64,000 nucleotides of DNA from positions 26,175 through 90,174 of the forward strand of contig JAFPWT010000014.1 in NCBI GenBank assembly GCA_017394865.1. The letters run 5' to 3'. The position numbers were made by a program, and so were the translations under genes. Below are positions 1 to 3,661 of this stretch, piece after piece. The notes under the pieces were generated by a model. That model did no database searches. It was not told where the DNA came from and saw only the letters and a program-made list of their open reading frames with translations. The DNA comes from Bacteroidales bacterium. Lineage in GTDB: Bacteria; Bacteroidota; Bacteroidia; Bacteroidales; F082. Numbering within the stretch: position 1 is the first letter of the stretch; every line of letters begins with the position of its first letter.

Positions 1-888
1 TTCAGAATCAATCGAATCGTGTTGTTTGTGTTGTTCGAAGATGCTATCGAATTCTTCACTGTAAAGCACCTGCAACGGGCTTTCTCCTATCTCTATTTCA
101 GCAAGATAGCCAATTGTCGACCTAAATTTTTCTTTAGATTCCTCATTCATTATTTGGTTAGCATCAAACTTTTCAGCGGACATCAAAACCAAATAATAAT
201 CTCGAGAACTCTCTTTAGTTAGTGCGCCAATACTGATTTCTTCTGTCACGACAGACCACGCAGCCGTGCTTGCCATAGGCATATTGATGGTATTGTTCAA
301 AGCCCCAGGAAAAGTGTTTTGGATGTATCCTTTCACCGAACCACCTCCAAACAGTATCAGTTTAGGTTTGTCTCTCAACAGGCCATGCATGGCAAATCCC
401 ACGATAGACAAAACCACTAAACCTATTACGATCTTTCCTATGTGTCGCCGAAAAGGTTGAGAGGTCTTCATGTGCTCAAAAAGCCTTTTATAAAAACCAT
501 CATAATAATCGCTGCTATAAGGTACCCCGTTTTCGCGCTTTACTTCAATAATGTCAACCGGGAGTTTCTGCTGAGGCCACTCAAACTCGGGTAACATGAC
601 AGGAATGATGTTTTTTCCAAGTTTTATGGCATACGCCAATTCCATACGCGCCCAATCGTTTTCGATAGGAGTGCCGGCAAGTGTGCGGTCAAAGAAATTC
701 TTGTCAAGGATGACGATGAAGTCTTTGCTTTGTTCGATGTTCTTAAGGATTATTTCATCAAACTTACCACCTCGCAAAGAGGTCTTGTCCATAAAAACCT
801 TATAACCATCATTTCTTAATCTTGTTGCAAGAAGCTCTGCCTCGTTATAACCACCTTCGTGCCGATAACTGATGAAGACACCACCCAT
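1..888 (-). CDS. TIR-domain membrane protein, 3' end cut by window edge
   Basis: The frame is open for 296 codons from ATG at 888 to the left edge, so the C-terminus is missing. Residues 1-140 form a TIR domain: it opens with FISYRHEGG, continues with VFMDKTSLRGGKFDE and a strand FIVIL, and carries WARME at 79-83, matching the WxxxE position of the catalytic glutamate in NAD-cleaving TIR enzymes. One membrane segment follows (about 152-168), then a domain beginning LILFGGGSVKGYIQ that faintly recalls periplasmic solute-binding proteins. The inferred topology is cytosolic TIR and periplasmic sensor. It is the last visible gene of a leftward operon behind a sigma factor, an RyR/C39 protein and another membrane protein. 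ATG 893 in another frame gives no such product. The TIR call is strong; NADase activity and the solute-binding identity are inference. Confidence 0.85.
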   Translation of the reverse strand, partial: MGGVFISYRHEGGYNEAELLATRLRNDGYKVFMDKTSLRGGKFDEIILKNIEQSKDFIVILDKNFFDRTLAGTPIENDWARMELAYAIKLGKNIIPVMLPEFEWPQQKLPVDIIEVKRENGVPYSSDYYDGFYKRLFEHMKTSQPFRRHIGKIVIGLVVLSIVGFAMHGLLRDKPKLILFGGGSVKGYIQNTFPGALNNTINMPMASTAAWSVVTEEISIGALTKESSRDYYLVLMSAEKFDANQIMNEESKEKFRSTIGYLAEIEIGESPLQVLYSEEFDSIFEQHKQHDSIDSE

Positions 889-995
889 ATCATACAGTTT
901 AATTACAGCACAAAAATACATTTTTTCCGATAAACTGCTGATAGATTTACATGGGTTGAAAGTTTCGCCCCTTGCGTTTAATACTGCTGCTCAAT

Positions 996-1898
996 TTAGC
1001 CATTTTGCTCCATGAATAGACTCTTGACGTCTACATAGCCTTTTGGTGATAGTTTATACTTTTGTATTTTCCAGGTGTCAGCTGCTTCTTTATAACGCAA
1101 GATATAGAAACAGCCGTCAAAGGCTTGTAATTGAGGCAGATCGGGAAACTCAGCACGTACAGCATCGTATTCGGAGATGTTATCAACAATAAGGGAAAGC
1201 TTTTCTTTAAAAGACAGCGACTTCCCTAATTCCCATTTGCAGGGTTCTGTATCACATACCCGTAGGAATATCTCAGAGGCTTTAAGAATCAACTCCTCCA
1301 CCTCTTGTTTCCAGGTTGATTCACTAATATAGATTCTTGTGGCGCCATAAGGGGCATCGACCTCATTCGGAAGACCGACAGCATATAATTTAGGAAATCC
1401 CACTTTAGCCACAAGTCTCGCAAAATCCTTCTCGGAGAAATTTGAAGCGTCTTGATCCGATCTGAATGCGCGCAAATAGAGCGAAAAATGTCTGTTGCTG
1501 GATAATAGTTCTTTTGACACCACTGTAGAAATATTACCTCTATTCTTGTTAATGCTCCTCGTCATATTGACAAACATCACAAAGATGATGGTTACCAATG
1601 ATAACAGAGCAGAATCTGCCCAATCGCCTTGAAGGTATCCCAAAACAACAATAACACCTATCACACATATTGCAATAACAACAGAGTAGATAATAATGGT
1701 AAGTGATATCCTATTATTCTTCAATTGTTTCCTTGCGAGCACGGTCTCTTTCAGGTTTGACCGAGAGTGTTTTTCGATCTTTTTCTTCGTGAAAGCTTCC
1801 TCTTTTGAGAGAAGTTTGGAAAGCCACGAACTCAGCAAAGCAGATAATAAGATAATTACAATTCTTGTTATTATCCTACCATATCCAATAGCACTCAT
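996..1898 (-). CDS. Membrane protein with uncharacterised LRAF-type cytosolic domain
   Basis: A 300-residue protein. It has a hydrophobic N-terminal stretch (about 8-25), a basic region, two further membrane segments (about 65-87 and 97-112), then a soluble domain from about 135. The soluble part has a pattern I recall from many uncharacterised bacterial membrane proteins: YLRAFRSD at 141-148, KLYAVGLPNEVDAPYGATRIY at about 170-190, STWKQEV, a strand EIFLRVCDTEP, and KWELGK at 221-226. The alternating strand/helix layout and the W-E pair suggest a Rossmann-like, possibly TIR-related fold, but I cannot prove that. It lies 48 bases after the RyR gene and 107 bases before the TIR gene on the same strand, so it is probably part of the same operon. 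No established function. Confidence 0.75.
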   Translation of the reverse strand: MSAIGYGRIITRIVIILLSALLSSWLSKLLSKEEAFTKKKIEKHSRSNLKETVLARKQLKNNRISLTIIIYSVVIAICVIGVIVVLGYLQGDWADSALLSLVTIIFVMFVNMTRSINKNRGNISTVVSKELLSSNRHFSLYLRAFRSDQDASNFSEKDFARLVAKVGFPKLYAVGLPNEVDAPYGATRIYISESTWKQEVEELILKASEIFLRVCDTEPCKWELGKSLSFKEKLSLIVDNISEYDAVRAEFPDLPQLQAFDGCFYILRYKEAADTWKIQKYKLSPKGYVDVKSLFMEQNG

Positions 1899-1946
1899 AT
1901 TAAAATAGTATATTCTCTAAGAAAGGATGTCGTCAAGCTGGAAACA

Positions 1947-2931: not shown

Positions 2932-3498
2932 TTATCTTTGTTTTTTGTATTTCTTGATGTCCTTAAGAGCAACCAGCGTAAGTTGTTTTATTGCTCGTTT
3001 CTTTAAATTGTATAGGTTGGCAATTTTGATGTTCATTTCAGCAGCCAGTTCTTCAGGAGGAACGTCTTCGAGGATCAGCTTTTCTATTACATAGGCATAT
3101 CGTTTGCTAGACATTGCCGCCAGTAGCCGTTCCACGTCCATGCTTGTTTCTATGGTGTTTTCTAGTGTCGTATCGTTACCTTCTTTTTTAGCAGGAGTCT
3201 CCTTGCCCCCTGGAACTATCAGTCGGTCGTGATTTTTTTTATCCAAGAAATAGCGGATGGCAACAGTTTTAAGCCAGCCATACAAGGAGCTGCTAAATTT
3301 GAAAGTTTTCAAACGACGCGCATCATTTTCCATCAAGTGTTGGTACAATTCATTGACAAACTCATTGTAATCCATTTGATAATCAAACACATTGCGTATA
3401 ATAGATTGAAACAAAGGCTTGCAGTGTTTGAAGAAAAACTCCTGCGTCACCCGGTTGTCTCGGTCAATAAGTTTTTGTATGATTTCTTTGTCGGTCAT
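2932..3498 (-). CDS. ECF-type RNA polymerase sigma factor
   Basis: A 188-residue sigma-70 family protein, the first gene of a leftward operon. The N-terminal half holds sigma region 2 (VTQEFFFKHCKPLFQSIIRNV through FSSSLYGWLKTVAIRYFLDKK, with the usual aromatic-rich promoter-melting helix). After a polar linker, region 4 follows (SKRYAYVIEKLILEDVPPEELAAEMNI then IANLYNLKKRAIKQL), the DNA-binding helix-turn-helix for the -35 element. I chose ATG 3498 because an upstream in-frame start (3534) would fall before the likely promoter. The next gene starts one base after the stop, which implies translational coupling. The partner gene has an anti-sigma-like N-terminus but no membrane segment, unlike classic FecR-type anti-sigma factors. 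The target promoters are unknown. Confidence 0.9.
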   Translation of the reverse strand: MTDKEIIQKLIDRDNRVTQEFFFKHCKPLFQSIIRNVFDYQMDYNEFVNELYQHLMENDARRLKTFKFSSSLYGWLKTVAIRYFLDKKNHDRLIVPGGKETPAKKEGNDTTLENTIETSMDVERLLAAMSSKRYAYVIEKLILEDVPPEELAAEMNIKIANLYNLKKRAIKQLTLVALKDIKKYKKQR

Positions 3499-3521
3499 AT
3501 GACTTTTGTTTGTTTTGGCTT

Positions 3522-3529
3522 CAAAGATA
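3522..3529 (-). promoter_or_regulatory. Bacteroidetes -7 box for the sigma/RyR/TIR operon
   Basis: On the minus strand the sequence reads TATCTTTG, matching the Bacteroidetes -7 consensus TAnnTTTG, 24 bases before the sigma factor ATG. I see no good TTTG/TTG element about 20 bases upstream, so a sigma-specific promoter is also possible. Confidence 0.45.
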
Positions 3530-3661
3530 CACAAAAATTCTTCCTTTTAAAGGATTGTTTTTAAAAACCGGTGATAGATTTTTTTGACAACAAGCATATT
3601 ATGAGTGTTGATCATAATCAAAATCAAACGACACACGATAAATCCTAAAAAACTAATTGTT

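Follow-up and report, generated by a model that had tools for sequence, protein, structure and literature searches.

A sigma factor/C39-RyR gene pair of the Bacteroidales, often beside TIR genes, as a candidate nucleotide-sensing switch

Our analysis of a 64,000-nucleotide stretch of a Bacteroidales bacterium genome (GTDB lineage F082; assembly GCA_017394865.1, contig JAFPWT010000014.1, positions 26,175 to 90,174 of the forward strand; the whole stretch is called the window here) concerns four genes at its left edge, the first two of which encode a sigma factor of the extracytoplasmic function (ECF) type and a protein in which a C39-like region is joined to a C-terminal RyR domain ("C39-RyR"). 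The conserved unit is this sigma and C39-RyR pair, and not the four genes in order. Judged from its sequence and recurrence the pair is a real, widespread regulatory cassette, often found beside TIR genes. The reading we favour, at a probability a little short of even, is that it is a sigma/anti-sigma switch that senses a nucleotide derived from nicotinamide adenine dinucleotide (NAD), and that it is part of an intracellular conflict (probably anti-phage) module.

The four genes are packed tightly on the leftward (-) strand from position 3498 to the window edge, and encode in turn the ECF sigma factor, the C39-RyR protein, a membrane protein and a TIR protein with a transmembrane segment (TIR-TM). 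The gaps between them are 1, 48 and 107 bases (with the TIR start at 888; the last gap is 74 if the upstream ATG at 921 is used), so the first-pass annotation, which had described four tight leftward genes with the sigma gene one base before C39-RyR, is borne out by the coordinates. The sigma gene (2932..3498, - strand, 188 amino acids) matches TIGR02937, the sigma70-ECF model of NCBIfam, with an E-value of 3.4e-11 and a marginal 43.0 bits, 0.1 bit above the cut-off of 42.9; Pfam sigma regions are sub-threshold in this protein (E 0.009 and 0.071). The C39-RyR gene (1947..2930, - strand, 327 amino acids) encodes an anti-sigma-like N-terminus, the C39-like region and the RyR domain; the first-pass annotation had named the last two parts and missed the FecR-like anti-sigma N-terminus.

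C39-RyR matches are present in 42 of 173 genomes of the family. Full or near-full-length relatives occur in ten family genomes that belong to a single genus and include the window's own; the remaining matches are RyR-only or N-terminal parts only. A scan of GTDB species genomes, in which the best 80 of 281 relatives were kept, gave 79 loci in what we take from their names to be Bacteroidales (for example Prevotella, Alistipes, other Rikenellaceae, Muribaculaceae, Barnesiella and Paludibacteraceae). The gene-order survey examined 84 loci, with the focus gene called in 79 (L082, L086, L096, L113 and L128 have no called focus gene); L034, L035, L036 and L038 were omitted, being the same contigs as L066, L094, L109 and L135. 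A sigma homologue is the very next gene upstream of C39-RyR in 73 of the 79 Bacteroidales loci, and by this recurrence the pairing exceeds chance. The two genes overlap in 65 of the 79 loci, by 11–29 bases in 63 of them. Loci without a called sigma gene directly upstream are L074, L094, L097, L105, L106 and L131, and in L105 a sigma coding sequence is visible there despite the missing call. A cluster of this kind is found in the complete genome record of Prevotella communis E15-14 (L078). The pair thus recurs across other genomes, but the evidence does not extend to the full four-gene order, and we rejected four-gene synteny as the basis of the system: only 5 of 79 downstream runs contain the membrane protein (it appears to be occasional cargo), the closest relative (L066) has cdsA- and psd-like genes (named by eye) in place of the TIR gene, and 28 of the 79 loci have no TIR gene in the stretch fetched. 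The earlier statement that no such system had been described agrees with the literature searched, in which we found no description of a sigma/C39-RyR system (most subscription journals lie outside that search); the available parts of PMC7016017 and PMC7824862 describe none. PADLOC has zero matches for the window C39-RyR or membrane protein at E<=1.

Typical FecR-type anti-sigma factors have a membrane helix and a FecR domain. The window C39-RyR protein has no hydrophobic segment by hydropathy and no FecR domain match in Pfam, and its likeness to this type is partial: a FecR-like N-terminal segment (about residues 1–50; 2781..2930, - strand) encoded beside a sigma gene, for which sigma binding is predicted. 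In profile comparison this segment scores 33.5 against FecR in local mode (E 4.6e-6, probability 86.5), while the best of 40 column-shuffled local controls scores 10.0; the FecR profile was built from residues 1–75 of 11 proteins that match FecR, among them the atypical L155 and L161. C39 peptidases have a Cys-His-Asp/Asn triad, and the C39-like (papain-fold) region that follows (2325..2684, - strand; Peptidase_C39_2, E 1.9e-4) has putative equivalents in Cys88, His183 and Asp201. Among 79 homologues these positions hold Cys in 77, His in 78 and, at the third, Asp in 61, Asn in 10, Glu in 7 and Gly in 1. Three of ten aligned homologues match Peptidase_C39_2 at E<0.01 (best 7.7e-6), three of ten match C39, and five of ten have a zinc ribbon match. 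At L051 5668-7712 and L053 5288-7346 the sigma gene precedes a gene for an anti-sigma-C39 protein that lacks RyR and ends in another C-terminus, which in L051 appears by eye to contain a membrane helix and a carboxypeptidase-regulatory-like domain. That relatives keep the anti-sigma-like and C39 parts but differ at their C-termini suggests that the switches form a family whose sensor domains can be exchanged, RyR being one of them.

The RyR domain (1956..2225, - strand) belongs to PF02026, with 108 bits against a cut-off of 27.4 (E 2.9e-31) over profile positions 1–90 of 91, and it also matches PDB 3nrt (E 5.6e-29) and RyR1-3. Phage RyR proteins have been reported to bind or cleave the TIR-made signals 2'/3'cADPR (forms of cyclic ADP-ribose; ADPR is ADP-ribose): the phage protein RyDEP is a glycosidase that hydrolyses 2'/3'cADPR by means of H75 and D117 and contacts it through W78 and H100, a further two phage RyR proteins are sponges, and of eight other phage homologues tested six bound 2'/3'cADPR and none cleaved it (2026 preprint, PMC13232231). 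Mapped from RyDEP's published numbering and not from its own sequence, the H75, W78, H100 and D117 positions correspond to His264, Trp267, Asn289 and Asp306 of the window protein. The window protein (Asn at +25), one stand-alone RyR protein and an RyR protein of a Pectobacterium phage all show the +3/+25/+42 spacing exactly, and in the fusions the equivalent His, Trp and Asp are present in 79, 78 and 79 of 79, respectively. The nucleotide pocket is thus likely to be retained in the RyR domain of the fusions, and an ADPR-type ligand is plausible, given that the residues by which phage RyR domains bind or cleave 2'/3'cADPR are mostly conserved here. The earlier suggestion that the C39/RyR protein senses a nucleotide, perhaps an ADP-ribose derivative, accordingly keeps its plausibility as to the ligand and most of the contact residues, and is weakened by the Asn at the H100 position in the window protein.

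A TIR gene is present in 51 of the 79 loci; it is the next gene after C39-RyR in 19, and lies in the same-strand downstream run in 32. Clustering was measured in the 39 family genomes with RyR, which have 56 RyR domains above cut-off and 107 TIR_2 matches. For 37 of the 56 RyR domains, spread over 24 of the 39 genomes, a TIR_2 match lies at most 10 kilobases (kb) away, where 0.77 such domains would be expected; some RyR domains share one cluster, so the 56 are not fully independent and the per-genome figure is the safer one. With 150 TIR matches listed, at least 27 of the 56 are near TIR, against 0.56 expected. The restriction family HSDR_N, which also has 107 matches in the same genomes, is near none of the 56 (1.01 expected; at 20 kb none against 1.87), nor is N6_Mtase (0.39 expected from the 42 among the matches listed). 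Ordinary defence-island clustering is an unlikely cause because these two restriction families, the only two tried, do not cluster with RyR. The co-occurrence that the first-pass annotation had proposed to look for is therefore real for RyR and TIR in Bacteroidales, and does not extend to sigma, RyR-C39, LRAF-type and TIR genes as a fixed set.

The genes downstream of the pair give a parallel result. TIR_2 matches 25 of 110 downstream proteins, as opposed to 3 of 101 upstream controls (Fisher p 1.1e-5). The downstream set was 110 of 126 proteins, of at least 60 amino acids, from loci up to L132 (two of L066, namely the cdsA- and psd-like ones, three of L100, which nearly duplicates L098, and eleven short proteins including an RyR-only one were left out), and the controls were upstream genes only, at least 6 kb away and encoding at least 120 amino acids. 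Other families among the 110 are RyR (11), ThsB_TIR (8), M48 (8), PrsW (7), nSTAND3 (6), nSTAND1 (5) and SIR2_2 (5). M48 has three matches among the controls, and zinc ribbons and TPR repeats are about equal in both sets; RyR, ThsB_TIR, PrsW and SIR2_2 are not among the 25 families listed for the 101 controls. The PADLOC models matched most among the downstream proteins include TIR-type ones and IetA. Stand-alone RyR genes have a TIR gene within two genes in 13 of 40 cases, and RCK-like genes are within two genes of 8 of the 40 and in 31 of the 79 C39-RyR loci. In three places (L045 2467-4805, L046 6039-8392 and L047 4881-7216) stand-alone RyR genes overlap genes of membrane proteins with RCK-like domains, of which the L045 member falls just under the cut-off of a Slo-like RCK model (E 3.4e-5); a bacterial RyR-channel pairing is possible. 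Another RCK-like protein, from L078, has no match at all.

The TIR-TM gene of the window (1..888, - strand, continuing to -482 outside the window; 456 amino acids) was completed from the flanking stretch (L002) of the window's own genome. Its TIR_2 match (E 2e-15) is above the Pfam cut-off, as is the RyR match, and both assignments of the first-pass annotation hold. In TIR NADases a conserved glutamate has a catalytic role; it is present in the window protein (Glu of WARMEL) and kept in 115 of 119 aligned TIR rows, which include a few duplicate contigs. The N-terminal TIR domain is followed by one hydrophobic segment (residues 148–172) and a C-terminal PBP-like domain, and because the basic flank of the segment is on the TIR side the C-terminal half would lie outside the cell. 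PBP_like_2 is above cut-off (E 1.6e-6) in L104, a homologue with the same C-terminus, and no PBP match was found for this C-terminus in the window protein, L035 or L123. Such a C-terminus occurs in just 5 of 173 family genomes, that of the window among them. At L123 11936-13360 it is joined to another N-terminal domain, DUF4062/TIR-like by eye and with no Pfam match. The membrane protein gene (996..1898, - strand, 300 amino acids) encodes a C-terminal "LRAF" domain and hydrophobic segments at about residues 3–31, 61–94 and 92–116 by hydropathy, and has matches in 7 of 173 family genomes including its own, the weakest of which (G052) is off-target by eye. An LRAF profile of nine rows (L063, L065 and one row without the motif excluded) showed a weak likeness to the second half of TIR, with a score of 23 (E 0.002, hhalign probability 14; best of 15 shuffles 12.2), so that a kinship of LRAF with TIR is at most tentative.

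In the flanking stretch the TIR gene runs toward a convergent gene that looks by eye like one for an M20 peptidase. This M20 peptidase-like gene occurs, 83% identical, at L002 10346-11683 and L035 3042-4379, flanking differently composed RyR/TIR clusters in two genomes; the RyR/TIR cluster of G136 has the same flank and different gene content. That one gene flanks different clusters suggests a shared site with exchanged content. Upstream of the sigma gene, at window 3605-4135, a divergent gene encodes a small membrane protein (176 amino acids) with no Pfam match at E 0.01.

Phage and viral collections, of which the phages were searched with RyR domains only, contain RyR-only proteins. A search of phage records gave 38 at E<=0.001; one further phage RyR search was run up to E 10, and its tail consists of chance matches. 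The full sigma/C39-RyR cassette was not found in the viral contigs searched, which have four loci only, all RyR-only, and a plasmid search gave two partial matches and zero full-length ones. A mobile-element origin of the cassette was considered and rejected on these results. The phage RyR-only proteins are consistent with a role in counter-defence. On one viral contig (L147 6868-9292) an RyR protein is encoded near SLOG/DUF2493-like and nicotinamidase-like genes (by eye), an arrangement reminiscent of phage NAD+-salvage/counter-defence clusters.

If the pair is a nucleotide-sensing switch, C39-RyR would hold the sigma factor through its N-terminal segment; upon infection or damage TIR-type (or SIR2-type) enzymes would make an ADPR-type signal, which the RyR domain would bind, and the C39-like region would then free the sigma factor, by self-cleavage or by a change of shape. 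The freed sigma factor would then boost the expression of effector genes, the adjacent TIR gene among them. The window's TIR protein, its PBP-like domain facing outward, would act as the enzyme or effector, with the LRAF protein as a membrane accessory. A more specific version makes the pair a transcriptional branch of TIR immunity, in which a host RyR domain is the receptor of a TIR-made ADP-ribose-type signal, and binding leads to proteolytic or allosteric release of the ECF sigma factor from the anti-sigma segment and so turns on exchangeable effector genes; this we put forward tentatively, as somewhat less likely than not.

Several observations weigh against the switch reading. At the H100 position, which contacts phosphate, the window protein has Asn, and just 44 of the 79 fusions have His (against Thr in 16, Asn in 12, Asp in 6 and Lys in 1), and as this His is so often lost there yet all four ligand residues are present in 30 of 32 stand-alone RyR proteins, the ligand or ligand preference of the fusions may differ. 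The FecR comparison is weaker in global mode (score 26.8, probability 41.4), and Peptidase_C39_2 is sub-threshold in the window protein (22.4 bits against a cut-off of 24). Among the 28 loci without TIR, 19 have at least 5 kb downstream in the stretch fetched and 9 have less. The closest relative (L066, genome G138) has no TIR gene in 10 kb downstream, with five TIR_2 matches on other contigs. The persistence of the sigma/C39-RyR pair across a quick 78-row tree, which leaves out one long row (L131), speaks for the switch reading, as do the at least 19 changes of TIR presence on that tree; but that count may be inflated by the low support of 22 of its 75 inner branches (drawn open), and contig ends may explain some missing TIR genes. 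Finally, a dyad search near the cassette gave no sigma-specific promoter, and the earlier proposal that the sigma factor drives the TIR gene gains nothing from it. The dyad AATTTGTA-N16-GCTAT was rejected as the sigma factor's promoter, its clustered matches falling in the coding end of sigma genes. The sigma gene itself is preceded, 23 bases before its start, by TATCTTTG (3522..3529, - strand, read from the sequence), a match to TANNTTTG, which we take to be the Bacteroidetes housekeeping -7 motif; 25 of 73 loci have TANNTTTG upstream of sigma, where shuffled sequences average 5.5, an enrichment that says only that the sigma factor may be made constitutively.

In a rival reading RyR is an enzyme or sponge that removes a TIR-made cADPR-type signal, which would make C39-RyR a damper or antidote and leave the sigma factor no role but to co-express it. 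In its favour, all 79 fusions retain both catalytic residues of RyDEP, H75 and D117; the phage proteins studied include a glycosidase, RyDEP itself, and two sponges (PMC13232231); and 13 of 40 stand-alone RyR genes have a TIR gene within two genes. We think this reading unlikely: eight other phage homologues did not cleave and six of the eight bound (PMC13232231), the fused anti-sigma-like N-terminus directly after sigma points to regulation, and many fusions lack the phosphate-contacting His. A general Bacteroidales ECF stress switch, with a ligand unrelated to TIR and with variable genes collecting at a conflict-gene hotspot, would account for downstream genes that vary widely, for the nearest relative without TIR nearby, for the M20 peptidase-like gene (83% identical) that flanks differently composed clusters in two genomes, and for anti-sigma-C39 proteins with other C-termini. 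It fits less well with RyR-TIR clustering as specific as that found here (HSDR_N 0 of 56 against 1.01, and N6_Mtase 0 of 56 against 0.39 among the matches listed) and with TIR in the same-strand downstream run of 32 of 79 loci, and we give it a small share of the probability.

It is also conceivable that the window TIR protein is an independent envelope sensor whose outward PBP-like domain detects a ligand and whose TIR output alone kills, the sigma pair being a neighbour only. This would agree with the PBP_like_2 match seen in a protein homologous to the TIR C-terminus, and with TATTTTTG (911..918, - strand, read from the sequence), a possible -7 motif of the TIR gene's own promoter. No more than 5 of 173 family genomes, the window's own among them, have this TIR C-terminus. 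TIR-RyR clustering extends well beyond these five, which makes the association independent of this TIR form, and we consider an envelope sensor improbable.

The system has parallels with several known ones. Like Thoeris, which consists of a ThsB TIR protein and a ThsA-type effector (for example SIR2/SLOG), it has TIR domains with the conserved TIR glutamate, and eight ThsB_TIR proteins are among the 110 downstream proteins; unlike Thoeris, no ThsA-type effector was found among the four window proteins, and there is instead a sigma/anti-sigma-like pair with RyR. It resembles the FecR/ECF pairs of Bacteroidetes in that an ECF sigma factor and a FecR-like N-terminal segment are encoded one directly after the other, and differs from them in that C39-RyR has neither hydrophobic segment nor FecR domain and carries the C39-like and RyR domains. 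The window protein matches the RyR sequence of the B. thetaiotaomicron putative ryanodine receptor (PDB 3nrt) and of animal RyR repeats; the window protein itself has no channel, with RCK-like genes in 31 of 79 C39-RyR loci. With phage RyDEP and the RyR sponges it shares the PF02026 family and the H75, W78 and D117 positions at the same spacing (PMC13232231), whereas C39-RyR is chromosomal (host), fused to anti-sigma-like and C39-like parts and paired with sigma, with Asn at the H100 position in the window protein.

According to PMC13232231, Thoeris signals activate effectors downstream; a sigma switch would, if true, add transcriptional control and amplification. Within the literature searched, cellular prokaryotic RyR domains would thereby gain their first proposed role, and nucleotide control of ryanodine receptors a bacterial counterpart; the switch would also suggest a reason for phage-borne RyR proteins, and the action of cADPR-like molecules on RyR repeats would become testable in small soluble proteins. 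In gut and rumen Bacteroidales, such a switch may convert an NAD-derived alarm signal into gene expression.

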